A stretch of 64,000 nt of DNA from Syntrophus aciditrophicus SB (GTDB lineage: Bacteria > Desulfobacterota > Syntrophia > Syntrophales > Syntrophaceae): assembly GCF_000013405.1 (NCBI RefSeq), contig NC_007759.1:2233001-2297000 (forward strand). Direction: 5' to 3'. Shown piece by piece: positions 5,772 through 38,231 of the stretch. Position 1 is the first letter of the stretch; each line of letters begins with the position of its first letter. The notes beneath the pieces are model-generated. The model was given only the letters and a program-made list of their open reading frames with translations, did no database searches and was not told the DNA's origin. The position numbers and the translations under genes were made by a program.

Positions 5772-6056
5772 AAATTTATTATCCCGATGCTGGAATACCC
5801 TTCTGATTTTTTTCGTGGAATATACACATTGTTTTTCTCGTACGCACAAACAAAAGCCGATAATCGGTCTGAACTGCTATCATTCGCACTGTGGTATAAA
5901 CAACACAGACCTGTTCAGAAACGGTTTACAGGATATTGAACAGGCAGAAAACACCAATAATATTAATGGGTACGCATCTTATTTTTTTAAAGAATCGAGG
6001 AAAATAATGGAACGCATTTTGCTTAAATAGGCTTTAACTTAATAAGGATTGAATTT

Positions 6057-7004
6057 ATGTATTTTCAAAGGACTTTGAAAAGCGATCTGTCCTGTCAGAG
6101 TGTGGGGTTGCATTCAGGCAGGAAAGTTAATATGCGAATCAGACCTGCGTCCTCCGACGAAGGCATCATTCTCGTGCGCACGGACACCCGATACAGACAG
6201 ATGATCAGGGTTTGTCTTGAAAATGTTACGGATACAACATTGGCAACAACAATTGGCAGTAGCGGAGCCGCGATTTCTACTGTTGAACACATCCTCTCGG
6301 CGTTAAGTGGGATGGGTGTAGATAACGCGATCATCGAGGTTGATGCGCCTGAAATTCCAATCATGGATGGAAGCGCATTGCCGTTTGTCAACATGTTGAA
6401 GCTTGTGGGTATCCGCACCCAGGAAAAATTGAAAAAATACCTGGTCGTTAAAAAGCCTGTTTCCGTATCGGAAGGGGAAAGTTTCGCAATGCTGGCGCCT
6501 TCCAGTTCCTTCGAAATCACATATAAAATTGAGTTTGACCACCCCCTTATCAAGGAACAGAGCTATCATCTCAAATTGTCCGACGAAACTTATGAAAAGG
6601 AAATCTGCAGTTCTCGTACTTTCGGTTTTTTAAAAGATGTCGAATACCTCCAGGCCAAAGGACTGGCCCTCGGCGGTTCTCTTAAAAATGCCGTCATCCT
6701 TGACGAAAAGAGAATCATCAACAAGGAGGGACTGAGAAGCCACAATGAATTTGTGAAGCACAAAATACTGGATGCAATCGGAGATCTTTCCCTGATAGGG
6801 ATGCCGATCGTCGGGCATTTTATTGCCTACAAATCCGGTCACAAATTGAATTCCATGCTGGTAAAGGCATTACTGGAACAGCAGGAAAACTGGACGACAG
6901 CCAGTTTTTTGAATTGTCAGGACGCCCACGGGCAGAATACCCGCGAAAAATTCAGCATACGGGACATTCCTGCCCGGAAAATTCTGGGCGCCATCCACGC
7001 ATGA
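6057..7004 (+). CDS. lpxC: UDP-3-O-acyl-N-acetylglucosamine deacetylase (LpxC)
   Basis: LpxC is the zinc enzyme of the first committed step of lipid A synthesis; it removes the acetate from UDP-3-O-acyl-GlcNAc in the cytoplasm. The 315-residue length is usual. The two halves are clear: STVEHILSALSGMGVDNA with the first zinc His, IMDGSALPFV, then SRTFGFLKDVEYL, HKILDAIGDLSLIG (second His and the Asp ligand) and GHFIAYKSGHKLN with the catalytic His. The ATG follows AAGGA. A long AT-rich leader (5772-6056) without a convincing gene precedes it. A strong bidirectional hairpin separates it from the convergent rpoD. Confidence 0.96.
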   Translation: MYFQRTLKSDLSCQSVGLHSGRKVNMRIRPASSDEGIILVRTDTRYRQMIRVCLENVTDTTLATTIGSSGAAISTVEHILSALSGMGVDNAIIEVDAPEIPIMDGSALPFVNMLKLVGIRTQEKLKKYLVVKKPVSVSEGESFAMLAPSSSFEITYKIEFDHPLIKEQSYHLKLSDETYEKEICSSRTFGFLKDVEYLQAKGLALGGSLKNAVILDEKRIINKEGLRSHNEFVKHKILDAIGDLSLIGMPIVGHFIAYKSGHKLNSMLVKALLEQQENWTTASFLNCQDAHGQNTREKFSIRDIPARKILGAIHA

Positions 7005-7012
7005 AAATCTGT

Positions 7013-7048
7013 AATCTGCACGCTTCTGGAAACAGGAGCGTGCAGATT
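7013..7048. terminator. bidirectional hairpin between lpxC and rpoD
   Basis: The left arm, AATCTGCACGCTTCTG, pairs with the right arm, CAGGAGCGTGCAGATT, around a GAAA loop; one pair is G-T. It sits between two convergent genes. There is no long T-run on either strand, so it may stop transcription only partly or protect 3' ends. Confidence 0.65.
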
Positions 7049-7066
7049 TAACTTTGGCAGGATTTT

Positions 7067-8809
7067 TTAGACCTGTTTAACAGTCCGTCGTCGTGAAGGA
7101 TTTCTCAATTTGCGGTAAGCGCCGGTCTCTATGGGACCGGGAAATTCACCCTCCTCTTCCCCCTGTTCCAGTTCTTCTTCACCATACTCGATTCTTTCGC
7201 TGATTCCAAAACGCATCCGCAACACCTTTTCTTCCCTTGGTGTCAACGTCGATAATATCTTTCTTGTCTGCTCCGCCAGATCCATACTGATCGTCGCCTC
7301 GGACGGAGACATGATCTTTTTATCTTCTATGAAATCACCAAGATGGCTATCCTCCTCCTCACCGATGGGAGTTTCGAGTGAAATAGGTTCTTTGGCGATT
7401 TTCAGAACCTTCCTTACCTTTTCCAGAGGATACTCCATCTTATTCGCGATTTCATCCGGGCTCGGTTCCCGTCCCAGCTCCTGCACGAGATAGCGTGATG
7501 TGCGAATCAATTTATTAATAGTCTCAATCATATGGACAGGGATTCGAATCGTTCTGGCCTGATCGGCGATCGCCCGGGTAATCGCCTGTCTGATCCACCA
7601 TGTTGCATACGTCGAAAATTTATATCCCCTCTGATATTCAAATTTATCAACAGCCTTCATTAATCCGATGTTTCCCTCCTGGATCAGATCCAGAAACTGC
7701 AACCCCCGATTCGTGTATTTTTTAGCAATGCTGACAACCAGCCGCAGATTGGCTTCAACGAGTTTCCGCTTGGCTTCTTCAGCTTTTTTTTCACCATGCT
7801 CGATGTTGAACAGGATTTTTTTGAAAGCCGTTACAGAGTATCCTGTTTCCTTCGTGATATTTTTTAGCTTTCGATTGGCTTCCCGAATCATGGCTTCCAC
7901 GGATTTCAGCTTTTCCATGGTAATGCCATATTCCGCCAGAATCGCTGCTTCATCTTGAGGATATTTTTTCAGTCTGGAACATGCCTTTTCAATCTGCGTC
8001 AACGAAAGTCCCGTTTCCTCTTTGCATTTTTGAATTTCATCTTCAGCCTTTTCGAGTTCGGCAAGATACCGTTTGATATTGGCAACCAGTTTATCAATCT
8101 GTTTTTTACCAAACCTGACTTTACGGCAAAGCTTGATGATTGCTTTCTTATTCTTTTCCATCTGAATTTTTAAAGCTTTACGTCCATCCTCACTGAGATC
8201 CTTTGCTCTCAACTTCTGCAGAATTTGATCATTTTTGCCGTCAAGCATGGCAACCTTATCAAGCAGTTTTATCACACGTTCCCGTTGAGAGTCTTCCTCA
8301 ACATAGCCGTCTTCATCCTCAAGATTGTCAATCACATTTTTAATACGTATCTCGTCACTTTTCAGTTTATTTCCAATATCAACCACTTCCTTCACGGATG
8401 CCGTGACACCGAATACCGCTCCCATTGCCTCCTGAGCGCCTTCTTCAATAATCTTGGCAATCTCAACCTCACCATCACGGCTCAACAGGGACACATATCC
8501 CATCTCGCGGAGATACATCTTAACGGGGTCTCCTGTCTTTCCCGCGACGGACATCATATCGATAAGCTCCCCTTCTTTCGCGGTTTCTCGTTCCTCGACA
8601 GGACTTTTTACCAGCAGCTTTTCTCCCTTCTCGGTATCAATGATATCGATATTTTTTTCACCGAAAAGCATGATGATATCGTCTATCTGATCTGAAGATG
8701 TAATATCGGACGGCAGAAAGTCATTCACATCGTCATAAGTAAGGAAACCCTTTTCCTCGCCCAGAGAAATTAATTTCTTGAATTCTTCCGATTGTATATT
8801 TTTCCCCAT
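7067..8809 (-). CDS. rpoD: principal sigma-70 factor RpoD with abnormal region 4.2
   Basis: The 580-residue protein has the full principal sigma layout: region 1.1 at the start, 1.2 ([16 protein letters not shown]), a non-conserved acidic/basic insert, 2.1-2.4 ([51 protein letters not shown]), region 3 ([14 protein letters not shown]) and 4.1 ([15 protein letters not shown]). Region 4.2 is wrong. After FGISERIEY the expected TLEEVG..F.VTRERIRQ is replaced by [17 protein letters not shown] (7133-7183), and the frame then returns to [14 protein letters not shown], in line with the usual IEAKALRKLRHPSR. The replacement is within one codon of the normal length. The -35-reading residues of the recognition helix are therefore absent. 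GGGGAG lies eight bases before the ATG. Order yqeY-dnaG-rpoD fits the macromolecular synthesis operon. Confidence 0.93.
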
Positions 8810-30945: not shown

Positions 30946-32226
30946 TTACAGGAGAGCGGCCGCAACCGTGGCCAGAGACAGCATGATCAGCACGGCGACA
31001 GTGGCCCATGAAATCAGATTCATGACGCGGCCGTTGGTATGTCTGCCCATGATTTTTTCATCATTAATGAGCAGCAGCATGATGATGAGGATGAAAGGAA
31101 GAAGAAGGCCGTTGATGACCTGAGAATAATACATGATGGGAATCAGCGGTACATTGGGCAGCAGAATAATCCCCGCCCCGATAATGATTATGATGGAATA
31201 GAGACCGTAAAACTGGGGGGCCTCAAGGAATTTCCTGTTGAGACTGGATTCCCAGCCAAAGGCTTCGCAGATGGTATAAGCCGTGGACAGGGGTAAAATA
31301 GAAGCAGCAAAAAGCGAGGCGTTCAAAAGTCCAAAAGCAAATAATCCCGAACAATATTTTCCCGCCATCGGTTCAAGTGCGAGGGCCGCATCACGGGCGG
31401 TTTCAATTCTTATCCCCCCCTGGAAAAGCGTAACAGCACAGAGCATCACAATAAAAAACGCAACAACATTTACCATGACGGATCCGATAACCACATCCAG
31501 GCGGGCGTAAGGATAGTCTTCAACCTTCAGACCTTTATCAACTACGGAAGATTGAAGATAAAACTGCATCCATGGCGCGATAGTGGTTCCCACGAGACCG
31601 ATCGCCATCGTCAGATAACCGGCGTCAAATCGCAGGCTGGGATTAAGGGTTGCCCTGCGCACTTCTTCCCAGTCCGGTTTACCCATAAATCCGGAAATAA
31701 TATAGGAAAGATAAAAAAGACAGGCGGTCAGAAATATTTTTTCCACGGACTTGTAATTGCCCTTAACAACAAGCCACCAGACAAACGCGGCGCCAATCGT
31801 TACGGAAAAATATTTGCTGAAGCCAAAGATCTCCATACTGGCCGCAATGCCCGCAAACTCGGCGATCGTGTTGCCCAGGTTGGTCAGCAAAAGAACAATC
31901 ATGAGGTAGAAGGTGACTCTGGCGCCGAACCGTTCCCGAATCAGATCGGACAGTCCTTTACCGGAAACAACCCCCATCCGGGCACCCATTTCCTGAATAA
32001 TGATCAGTGCGCCCGTAATGGGTATCAGGAGCCACAAAAGGGAAAGACCGTATTCCGCTCCAGCCAGTGAATAGGTTGTGATTCCGCCGGCGTCATTATC
32101 CACATTGGAGGTGATAATTCCAGGCCCGATAAAGGCCAAAAGGATTCCGAGAGACTTCCAGAATTTCCTATTGGACAATAAAAAAAATCTTTCCCGAATA
32201 GCTGACAGAAAACGTTTACCCGGCAT
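30946..32226 (-). CDS. Nramp-related divalent metal (probably Mg2+) transporter
   Basis: The 426-residue protein has about eleven membrane helices of the Nramp/SLC11 fold. The two unwound-helix motifs that bind manganese or iron in classical Nramps are changed. DPGN of helix 1 is replaced by DNDAGG (Asp43-Asn44-Asp45-Ala46), and the MPHN of helix 6 by IAPWMQF in VGTTIAPWMQFYLQSS. This is the pattern of the Nramp-related magnesium transporter branch, so Mg2+ is the likelier substrate; that is inference. The upstream gene, 27 bases away on the same strand, is an MgtE-like sensor, which supports the view. The ATG at 32226 has only a weak site (GGTGG). Confidence 0.85.
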   Translation of the reverse strand: MPGKRFLSAIRERFFLLSNRKFWKSLGILLAFIGPGIITSNVDNDAGGITTYSLAGAEYGLSLLWLLIPITGALIIIQEMGARMGVVSGKGLSDLIRERFGARVTFYLMIVLLLTNLGNTIAEFAGIAASMEIFGFSKYFSVTIGAAFVWWLVVKGNYKSVEKIFLTACLFYLSYIISGFMGKPDWEEVRRATLNPSLRFDAGYLTMAIGLVGTTIAPWMQFYLQSSVVDKGLKVEDYPYARLDVVIGSVMVNVVAFFIVMLCAVTLFQGGIRIETARDAALALEPMAGKYCSGLFAFGLLNASLFAASILPLSTAYTICEAFGWESSLNRKFLEAPQFYGLYSIIIIIGAGIILLPNVPLIPIMYYSQVINGLLLPFILIIMLLLINDEKIMGRHTNGRVMNLISWATVAVLIMLSLATVAAALL

Positions 32227-32253
32227 AGATGGCCACCATCGTCTTTCATAACC

Positions 32254-33516
32254 TTATCTCCCCAACCGAGGCGCAACCACTTCGAGCAGATTCTTGAACA
32301 TGATGACCCCTTTCATTTTCTTTTGATCATCCACCACCGGAATGGCCAGCATGCCATATTTGGCAAAATCACTGGCGATCTGATCTTTATCTTCATCAAG
32401 ATCGACCATGACAACCCTCCGGAACATCAGGTCTGAAAGAGAGGTTTCCGGAGCGGCAACCAGCAGTTCCCTCAGACTCAACATCCCGAGAAGATGTTCC
32501 TCTTCATCGGTGACATAAAGATAATACACAAAATCCAGGTCCTCAGCTTCTCTCCGGATCACCTGCAGGGCCTCCAGAGCCGTCGTCGAGGGCGGAAAAC
32601 TCAGATAAGCCGTCGTCATTAATCCACCGGCCGTTTCTTCCGGATGGGCCAGCAGTTCTTTGACATCCTCAGCAATATCCTGTTCCATCTCCTTGAGAAT
32701 GCCTTCCGCCTTATCCTTCGGCAGATCGCTCAACAGGTCAGCCGCCTCGTTTAGGGACATTTCTTCAATAATATCACTTGCCTGAGAATCTTCCATATTC
32801 TCGATCAGGCTGATTTGAATCTTGGGATCCGTCTCTTCCAGAGTCTCCGCTGCCGTCTCCACATCCAGCGACTGAAAAACAGCCGTTCGCTGACGAATAT
32901 CCAGTTCCTCGATAATATCCGCGATATCAGCGGGATGAAGCTGGGATAACCGACTTTCCGCAATTTTGAGACGCAGCAGATCAGGGGAAGAAACCGGCTG
33001 CACAAACCGCCAGGAAATAAACTGATCGGGAAGGTCGTATTCAAAAAGTCCCTTCAACATGAAATCCGTCGCCCTCTCCAGACCTACCCGCCTCATGAGG
33101 CCGCGGAATCCCACGTCCACATGAACCAGATAGAGTTTGCCGTGCGCCTTCAGAAACTGGAGATCGTTCACCCGCCTGACCTTGGCGCCGTTCGTATCGA
33201 CAATCTGCTTGTCCAGCAGGCTTTCTTTGAGCAATATTTCTTCCCTCTCCGGCGCCAATTCACGGACGTCGTCAAGCCCGCGGGAACCGACAACAAAGCA
33301 GCCATTCGTTTCGACCGGATTCTGCCATGGAAAGAACAAAACGGCCTTGCGGGGTCTGGATTTGAGCAGGATACCGGTTACAGAGGGATACGGTTCCCCA
33401 AGACGAACCATCAAGTCAAGAATTCGGCCCAACGATCGTCCTTCTGAATCAAGAATTCTTTTCCCCAGGATCTGGCTTAAAAACAAAAAAACCTGATCTT
33501 CAGAATTAACAGCCAT
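32254..33516 (-). CDS. soluble PRC-barrel / MgtE-N / CBS protein, likely Mg2+ sensor of the Nramp-related transporter
   Basis: The 420-residue protein has no membrane helix. Its N-terminal third contains two PRC-barrel-like units (ILGKRILDSEGRSLGRILDL; SLLDKQIVDTNGAKVRRVNDL). The middle is the MgtE N superhelix with repeated units such as LHPADIADIIEEL and MSLNEAADLLSDLPKDKA, ending in PEETAGGLMTT. The C-terminal part is a CBS pair. In MgtE channels the same N-CBS module binds Mg2+ and gates the pore; here the pore domain is missing and the next gene is an Nramp-related transporter. The ATG at 33516 has GAGG nine bases upstream. A longer frame to 33552 is unlikely. Confidence 0.88.
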   Translation of the reverse strand: MAVNSEDQVFLFLSQILGKRILDSEGRSLGRILDLMVRLGEPYPSVTGILLKSRPRKAVLFFPWQNPVETNGCFVVGSRGLDDVRELAPEREEILLKESLLDKQIVDTNGAKVRRVNDLQFLKAHGKLYLVHVDVGFRGLMRRVGLERATDFMLKGLFEYDLPDQFISWRFVQPVSSPDLLRLKIAESRLSQLHPADIADIIEELDIRQRTAVFQSLDVETAAETLEETDPKIQISLIENMEDSQASDIIEEMSLNEAADLLSDLPKDKAEGILKEMEQDIAEDVKELLAHPEETAGGLMTTAYLSFPPSTTALEALQVIRREAEDLDFVYYLYVTDEEEHLLGMLSLRELLVAAPETSLSDLMFRRVVMVDLDEDKDQIASDFAKYGMLAIPVVDDQKKMKGVIMFKNLLEVVAPRLGR

Positions 33517-33676
33517 GTGATTTTCCTCTAAGTGCTGGGCGTATAGCATCATTGAAGATTAAAAAAAAGAATTTTCCCTCCGAATATCCCCTCTCTGAGT
33601 GTTATATCCAGGCAAGGGGTCCCTGACTTGCCGGGATGACATTGCAGCTTGACAGAATAAAAATATTCTACTAAAA

Positions 33677-33781
33677 ACTCCCGTGAAAATGGGGATGGAG
33701 CATGGAGCAGGGAAAACGCCTGGACATTGTGGAACTCGGATGAATCGGATCAGCCTTCTCACGCAATGGGAAGGCTTTTTT
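33677..33781 (+). terminator. attenuator-like terminator in the pyrR leader
   Basis: AGCCTTC (33752-33758) pairs with GAAGGCT (33770-33776), followed by a run of T to 33781, a simple intrinsic terminator. It sits about 85 bases before pyrR with no gene in front of it on that strand, the position of a PyrR-controlled attenuator. Upstream, ACTCCCGTGAAAAT (33677-33690) flanked by CTCC/GGAG resembles the PyrR-binding loop only partly (UCCNGNGA kept, following GG lost). A further hairpin, GGCAAG/CTTGCC, lies at 33611-33632. The terminator is clear; PyrR control is inference. Confidence 0.6.
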
Positions 33782-33855: not shown

Positions 33856-34410
<555 letters not shown>

Positions 34411-36851: not shown

Positions 36852-38231
36852 ATGCACACTCATATGACAACCGACACCCTGAATGAATTCCATACGAAAA
36901 CGCTGAAACTTTTGAAAAAACTCATCGGCGAAAACCGGGAATTCGATATTATCGATCTTTTTTCTCAAATGCATCCTGCCGATATCGCCTACCTTATCGA
37001 TATACTTCAGGATGAAGAAAAAGTTCGGCTCTTTTCCCTTCTGGATATCGAAAAAGCTTCCGACGTTATTCTGGAAATCAGTGATGCCTCCAAAGATCGG
37101 ATCATCGAGGAACTTTCATCCGAGAAGCTGACAAAAATCATTGACGAGATGGATTCCGACGACGCCGCGGACTTCATCGCCGAGTTGCCCGAAGAGCAGG
37201 CGGAAACGGTTCTGGCGGGCATAGAACCGGAGGACGTTGAAGACGTCAAAAAACTGCTTCAATATCCAGAAGATACCGCAGGCGGCATCATGCAGTCCGA
37301 ACTGGTCTCCGTCCCGGATACCGCCCTTATCCGGGATGCCGTCTCAGCCGTGATCCAGGCCGCGGAAGAAACGGAGGACATCTACAGCATCTTTGTCGTG
37401 GATGCCGAAGGTCATCTTGTCGGAACGGTTCCCCTTCAGCAACTCATTACTGCAAGGAGAAACAGCCCGGTCATCTCTTCCATAGAACGGGACATCCCCC
37501 GGGTCACGGTAGACGTCGATCAGGAACAGGTCGTCCAGATCTTCAAGAAATACGACCTGGTAACCCTTCCGGTTGTGGATGAGGATGAACGTCTTGTCGG
37601 CAGGATTACCGTGGATGATGTCGTCGATGTCATGGAGGAAGAGACATCGGAAGACATATACCGTATCGCCGGCGTGGGCGAGGACGACAGTCCGCTGAGC
37701 GGCCCGGTTCAATCTGTCCGGAAAAGGCTTCCCTGGCTGTACTTCAACCTCCTGACCGCGCTTTGTTCCGCTCTGGTCATCGGTTTTTTTGAAGACACCA
37801 TCAAACTGGTGGTCGCCCTGGCCGTTTTCATGCCGGTAGTGGCCGGTCTCGGAGGAAACGCCGGCGGGCAAACCCTGGTGTTGATCGTCCGCGGACTGGC
37901 CCTGGGAGAGTTAACCCTTGAAAACGCCCGAAAAACCCTGTTCAAGGAACTTCTGGTGGGTGTCGCCAACGGTCTCGCGGTCGGGGTCGTGGTTGGAATC
38001 GTCTGTTATCTTTGGAAAGGGAATTTTCTGCTTGGAGGGATTCTCTTTATGGCCATGACCATCAACATTCTTGTCGGGACCCTGGCCGGAACTCTCATTC
38101 CCCTGACCCTGAAATGGCTGAAACTCGATCCTGCCCTGGGTTCCAACGTATTTGTCACGGCTCTGACTGATGTATGCGGCTTTCTCTCATTCCTGGGGCT
38201 GGCCACGCTTTTTTTGAAACTACTGACATGA
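36852..38231 (+). CDS. mgtE: MgtE magnesium transporter
   Basis: A complete MgtE of 459 residues, a Mg2+-gated Mg2+ channel. The cytoplasmic N domain has MHPADIAYLIDIL, DDAADFIAELPEEQAETVLAG and PEDTAGGIMQSE. A CBS pair follows (IYSIFVVDAEGHLVG; LVTLPVVDEDERLVGRITVDDVVDV), and then the pore domain of five helices with VAGLGGNAGGQTLVLIVRGLALGE. Start codons at 36852 and 36864 are both possible; neither has a good ribosome binding site. The stop overlaps the recO ATG. A split MgtE-like module lies 3 kb upstream. Confidence 0.95.
   Translation: MHTHMTTDTLNEFHTKTLKLLKKLIGENREFDIIDLFSQMHPADIAYLIDILQDEEKVRLFSLLDIEKASDVILEISDASKDRIIEELSSEKLTKIIDEMDSDDAADFIAELPEEQAETVLAGIEPEDVEDVKKLLQYPEDTAGGIMQSELVSVPDTALIRDAVSAVIQAAEETEDIYSIFVVDAEGHLVGTVPLQQLITARRNSPVISSIERDIPRVTVDVDQEQVVQIFKKYDLVTLPVVDEDERLVGRITVDDVVDVMEEETSEDIYRIAGVGEDDSPLSGPVQSVRKRLPWLYFNLLTALCSALVIGFFEDTIKLVVALAVFMPVVAGLGGNAGGQTLVLIVRGLALGELTLENARKTLFKELLVGVANGLAVGVVVGIVCYLWKGNFLLGGILFMAMTINILVGTLAGTLIPLTLKWLKLDPALGSNVFVTALTDVCGFLSFLGLATLFLKLLT

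Follow-up and report, generated by a model that had tools for sequence, protein, structure and literature searches.

It is already known that genes for NrmT transporters rarely stand alone. Shin et al. 2014 (PMC4072509) reported that most of them adjoin a gene whose product resembles, by homology, the cytosolic portion of MgtE, and speculated that this MgtE-N-like neighbour exerts a cytoplasmic feedback control. In the same study, the NrmT of C. acetobutylicum functioned without a partner; the A. capsulatum NrmT, which has an MgtE-like neighbour, restored Mn2+ import fully and Mg2+ import only at millimolar levels, and co-expression of the partner gave this transporter no better Mg2+ rescue. 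The partner was described there only as a homologue of the MgtE cytosolic domain, and its PRC half is not mentioned in the main text of that paper. More recently, Ramanadane et al. 2022 (PMC8806188) defined the NRMTs by the signature DxxG-TxxA/T and found that EleNRMT accepts Mg2+ and Mn2+ but not Ca2+, and that its transport is not coupled to H+.

The locus analysed here lies in a window of 64,000 nucleotides, by which we mean the whole stretch of DNA, and its features are collected in Table 1. The sensor gene is located 5' and the transporter gene 3', with a spacing of 27 nt (32227-32253); the sensor ATG is at 33516, and an alternative start of the open reading frame is possible at 33552. 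Pfam recognised Nramp in the transporter (E 5e-105), and PRC (E 2e-7), MgtE_N (E 2e-28) and two CBS domains (E 3e-16) in the sensor, while the transmembrane MgtE pore domain (PF01769) was not found in the 420-aa sensor. Open reading frames and Pfam therefore agree with the first-pass annotation, which had described a soluble PRC/MgtE_N/CBS protein lacking a pore, encoded 27 bases 5' of an Nramp-fold gene, and a full MgtE 3.3 kb from the pair; the Pfam domains of the latter are complete. This MgtE was also considered as a part of the pair, and was dropped because it is on the opposite strand and behind pyrR, pyrB and pyrC. As for this pyr region, in some relatives a PyrR-binding-site RNA is found, divergent, 5' of the sensor gene and ahead of pyrR; in the window, a strong terminator-like hairpin at 33752-33776 (+) precedes pyrR (at 33865), and Rfam gave no match there.

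Table 1. Coordinates of the features in the window and in related loci.
Feature	Position	Strand	Description
Sensor gene	32254..33516	(-)	420 aa; two PRC-type beta modules, MgtE_N and two CBS; soluble
PRC-barrel module 1 (residues 11-90)	33247..33486	(-)	Pfam PRC; beta strands in the model
Second beta module (residues 91-185)	32962..33246	(-)	Family-specific invariant residues
MgtE_N domain (residues 193-294)	32635..32940	(-)	Pfam
CBS pair (residues 297-414)	32275..32628	(-)	Pfam; without plug helix after it
NRMT-type Nramp transporter gene	30946..32226	(-)	426 aa
Helix-1 ion-site motif D45-A-G-G48	32083..32094	(-)	DxxG of NRMTs (PMC8806188)
Helix-6 ion-site motif T214-T-I-A217	31576..31587	(-)	TxxA of NRMTs (PMC8806188)
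Full MgtE gene	36852-38231	(+)	MgtE_N, CBS and MgtE pore (Pfam)
Long-frame canonical Nramp	G024:C12:47401-48591
Long-frame canonical Nramp	G060:C69:9665-10921
Long-frame canonical Nramp	G093:C82:6338-7525
Long-frame canonical Nramp	G125:C1:1318604-1319803
PyrR-binding-site RNA	L004:4502-4606	(-)
PyrR-binding-site RNA	L016:4471-4575	(-)
PyrR-binding-site RNA	L019:3685-3788	(-)

The best PDB match of the transporter was EleNRMT (7qia; E 2.5e-116, 46% identical), followed by MntH (8e-26), and EleNRMT also ranked first (TMt 0.89) when the fold search was performed with the joined model described below, so that both searches set the protein nearer to NRMT than to canonical Nramp. The first-pass annotation had pointed out the altered metal motifs DNDAGG and IAPWMQF against DPGN and MPHN, and the alignment with canonical Nramps confirmed it: (N)DAGG and GTTIAPWMQF occupy the places of DPGN and xxMPH, and instead of the MntH/Nramp signature (DPGN, A/CxxM(PH)) the protein has DAGG and TTIAPW, which provide the DxxG in helix 1 and the TxxA/T in helix 6 typical of NRMT/NrmT. 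The ion site D45/G48/T214/A217/Q369 corresponds to D55/G58/T224/A227/Q379 of EleNRMT and is invariant across 78 sequences, although the relatives were collected with short peptide patterns partly overlapping helix 6, and the invariance of this helix is thus favoured by selection. Judged by its sequence, the transporter belongs to an established clade of Nramp (SLC11) proteins, NRMT/NrmT, with a complete predicted Mg2+ ion site of the NRMT type. In the surveyed genomes we also observed canonical Nramps with open frames of 639-712 aa (Table 1), in which an extra fused domain is possible.

A link to Mg2+ comes from the M-box riboswitch (RF00380), found directly 5' of the sensor-NRMT pair in ten relatives, whose transporters are 58-64% identical to that of the window (L058, L062, L064, in which the contig end cuts the M-box, L069, L070, L071, L074, L075, L076 and L078). 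No M-box was detected near the window pair or elsewhere in this genome, nor in the twelve Syntrophales relatives scanned. The rest of the genome encodes one CorA, one MgtE and one ZnuA-type binding protein, and no second Nramp; NRMT is not the sole Mg2+ route, since CorA and MgtE are also present.

The best explanation, which we regard as rather likely, is a two-gene Mg2+ uptake system in which the sensor is predicted to control the NRMT transport. NRMT would be an Nramp-fold carrier admitting Mg2+ and, less selectively, Mn2+, uncoupled from protons and driven by the membrane potential, and the sensor would be its obligate cytosolic partner. The PRC half may dock onto the cytosolic face of NRMT, and the MgtE_N-CBS half would close and open with the intracellular divalent cation, perhaps with a nucleotide, throttling uptake once the cell has enough; the sign of this control would be inhibition at high Mg2+. 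We infer a regulation by a cation or nucleotide inside the cell, and the sensor would do in trans for NRMT what the cytosolic domain does in cis for MgtE.

On the other hand, the pair could be the Mn2+ importer of this genome, because no other Nramp is present, and in that case it would import Mn2+ (or Mn2+/Fe2+) and the sensor would read Mn2+. The full rescue of Mn2+ import by the A. capsulatum NrmT, with its Mg2+ rescue limited to millimolar levels (PMC4072509), and the transport of Mn2+ by NRMTs (PMC8806188) speak for it, together with the coverage of Mg2+ by CorA and MgtE and the missing M-box in this genome. However, the complete NRMT ion site has neither the Met nor the Asn that favour transition metals, close relatives are under M-box control, and the ZnuA-type binding protein could serve a Mn/Zn ABC importer; we therefore consider the Mn2+ importer unlikely.

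Coming back to the sensor of the preferred two-gene Mg2+ uptake system, its two halves differ in what can be recognised. Residues 190-414 fold like the cytosolic domain of MgtE in its Mg2+-bound form, with 244 residues aligned at an rmsd of 2.4 (Z 23.6), while the PRC half gave no PDB sequence match; the fold-search rows for the sensor covered almost only residues 190-420 and hardly the PRC half. Pfam PRC was matched in 54 of 56 members of the sensor family. Conservation within the family is highest in the second beta module, where 12 columns are conserved to at least 97%, compared to 3-4 in the remaining domains, and the invariant residues are D102, Q104, D107, R115, N117, D118, D134, G139, R142, R143 and W169. 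This stretch is absent from MgtE. We infer that the PRC half binds the NRMT transporter on its cytosolic face.

Structure models are consistent with such a contact. The sensor TAA and the transporter start share the same frame; the TAA was read as Gly, giving a joined chain of 856 residues with a 10-residue linker, which is an artefact of the method, and the joined alignment contained 17 joined and 64 single rows. AlphaFold2 predicted the joined chain with a mean pLDDT of 88.8 and pTM 0.69, compared to 82.7 and 0.54 for the sensor alone, despite the larger number of sensor rows in the latter (56 vs 49). On joining, the pLDDT of the PRC half rose from about 81 to about 91, and that of the N-CBS half by about 6 points. 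This suggests that the AlphaFold2 model uses sensor-transporter contacts, and the complex prediction proposed in the first-pass annotation gave a hint of docking rather than a proof.

To what extent the MgtE_N-CBS half resembles the MgtE gate can be read from its ligands. In T. thermophilus MgtE the Mg2+ sites are Mg4 (D91/D247), Mg5 (D226/D250), Mg6 (D95), Mg7 (E59), and Mg2 and Mg3 in the plug helix (PMC5882242); these ligands were mapped onto 72 sensors, with the ATP ligands taken from PMC5529423. Mg6 is Asp in 71 of the 72 sensors (D260 in the window sensor) and Mg7 is acidic in 61 (E224 in the window sensor). By contrast, the Mg4 pair varies, being D/D in 38, S/N in 19, S/S in 8 and D/A in 6, and in the window sensor it is N/N (N256 at the D91 position, and N409); every M-box locus falls among the D/D sensors. 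Mg5 is altered or broken in most of the 72 (G/E in the window sensor, G388 and E412), and the plug helix carrying Mg2 and Mg3 is missing from the sensor. At the ATP site, the window sensor keeps Y170, R187 and V207, while D188 is replaced by E, N203 by F and F227 by M. Of an MgtE-type Mg2+ gate, the window sensor keeps Mg6 and Mg7. The two Mg4 aspartates were probably lost together in one event, because their coordinated loss is seen only in the loci nearest to that of the window. Thus, a Mg2+ sensing identical to that of MgtE is not supported by the sequence for the window lineage, which has lost the Mg4 Asp pair, has no plug helix with Mg2 and Mg3 and shows an eroded ATP site.

These data also bear on the possibility that the partner does not gate NRMT but serves its stability, its assembly or its tethering to the membrane, with the MgtE_N-CBS half as an inherited scaffold or a reader of energy (adenylate). 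PRC domains are known protein-protein modules, the most invariant residues of the sensor sit in the PRC half, and the Mg2+ ligands are incompletely retained and differ from lineage to lineage. A pure scaffold, however, would need none of the ligands counted above, neither the widely kept Mg6 and Mg7 nor the Mg4 D/D pair present in all the M-box loci, which makes this role improbable. Another reading, improbable in our opinion, is that the Syntrophales-type sensor is a rewired gate, in which N-CBS would be held shut by hydrogen bonds or would respond to some ligand that is not Mg2+; the triggers of the partner would then differ within one transporter family. It is prompted by the coordinated change of Mg4 from D/D to S/N, S/S or N/N, which occurs in loci lacking an M-box.

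The control of NRMT by the sensor, which we prefer, draws support from the distribution of the two genes. We collected 80 NRMT loci, 57-82% identical and from many phyla, of which 6 were excluded for contig ends at most 262 bases upstream. In the 74 evaluable loci the sensor is beside NRMT in 73, directly upstream in 72 and directly downstream in one (L068), and the sole exception without a sensor within 6 kb is L054 (NRMT at 5989-7257). In the window phylum, 118 genomes were surveyed for full-length sensor (at least 260 bits) and NRMT (at least 320 bits): the same 30 genomes carry both, and the other 88 carry neither. An operon is not needed for this co-occurrence, because 3 of the 30 genomes have the genes in convergent orientation (G060, G024, G087) and 4 have them on separate contigs (G085, G056, G111, G109). 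A second phylum, that of L070, was surveyed in 119 genomes, with NRMT at 350 bits or more and the sensor searched by its PRC half; both were found in the same 13 genomes, adjacent in all 12 loci inspected. Fisher P values were 1e-28 for the window phylum and 1e-17 for the second one, with the evidence overstated by the relatedness of the genomes. The sensor is absent from the surveyed genomes having canonical Nramps only. In addition, pairwise distances of sensor and NRMT were correlated (r 0.89, 0 of 2000 permutations), which is in large part explained by shared ancestry.

Since the two genes are almost never apart, the sensor is probably the control partner of the NRMT transporter. The lack of a conserved neighbourhood had been set beforehand as a result that would refute the proposal, and the opposite was observed, in the loci as well as in the genomes of both phyla. 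A simple hitch-hiking, in which the genes travel jointly and function separately, would suit a short, often overlapping gene pair transferable as a single block, but it is very improbable, as the pair is kept when convergent or on separate contigs, no sampled genome of the two phyla has one gene alone and only L054 has no sensor within 6 kb.

Some loci deserve a separate mention. The L097 sensor was not used, being split by a frameshift inside MgtE_N that is possibly an assembly error. A natural sensor-NRMT fusion was searched for and none was found; the 840-aa open frame of G238, a candidate, has an in-frame TAG between the genes. One genome (G130) has a second sensor PRC half (G130:C4:6049-6534), together with one close NRMT and a distant one (35%) on another contig, and the distant NRMT type possibly uses a partner too.

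Taken together, the proposal of the first-pass annotation that the sensor senses Mg2+ and controls the transporter finds support in the conserved pairing, in the NRMT ion site and in the M-box of relatives, but a gating identical to that of MgtE is doubtful, with the plug helix and Mg ligands missing. Similarly, a gating module known from one type of Mg2+ channel does stand beside the transporter of another, but this is not new: both the pairing and the idea of feedback control were already published by Shin et al. 2014 (PMC4072509). What the present analysis adds is that the one-to-one co-occurrence in two phyla, unlinked cases included, turns the MgtE-like neighbour of NrmT into an expected subunit, and that within the PRC half the second module (residues ~91-185) is singled out as the prime target for mutagenesis. 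If true, a facilitative Nramp-fold carrier would be gated in trans by a borrowed channel gate.

Compared to the cytosolic domain of T. thermophilus MgtE (2yvy), the sensor is alike in the order of the domains, in the fold of residues 190-414 and in the Mg6 and Mg7 ligands; it differs in being a separate soluble protein, with neither pore nor plug helix and with the PRC half added N-terminally, and in the partial loss of the Mg2-Mg5 and ATP-site ligands. It is 33% identical, across the N-CBS part, to the MgtE of the same genome, which instead is a complete channel whose mapped Mg4-Mg7 ligands are all acidic. With the NrmT/NRMT clade (Ca_c0685, Ca_c3329, EleNRMT; PMC4072509, PMC8806188) the window pair shares the clade itself, the ion-site signature and the adjacent gene. 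Relatives in this clade have an upstream M-box and the window genome has none; however, the M-box occurs only in a subset of NRMT members and is not required for membership. The partner protein of the window lineage has lost the Mg4 Asp pair. The pair is, nevertheless, an ordinary and well-formed member of a known transporter-partner system, for which the evidence of an obligate partnership is stronger here than in PMC4072509 or PMC8806188.
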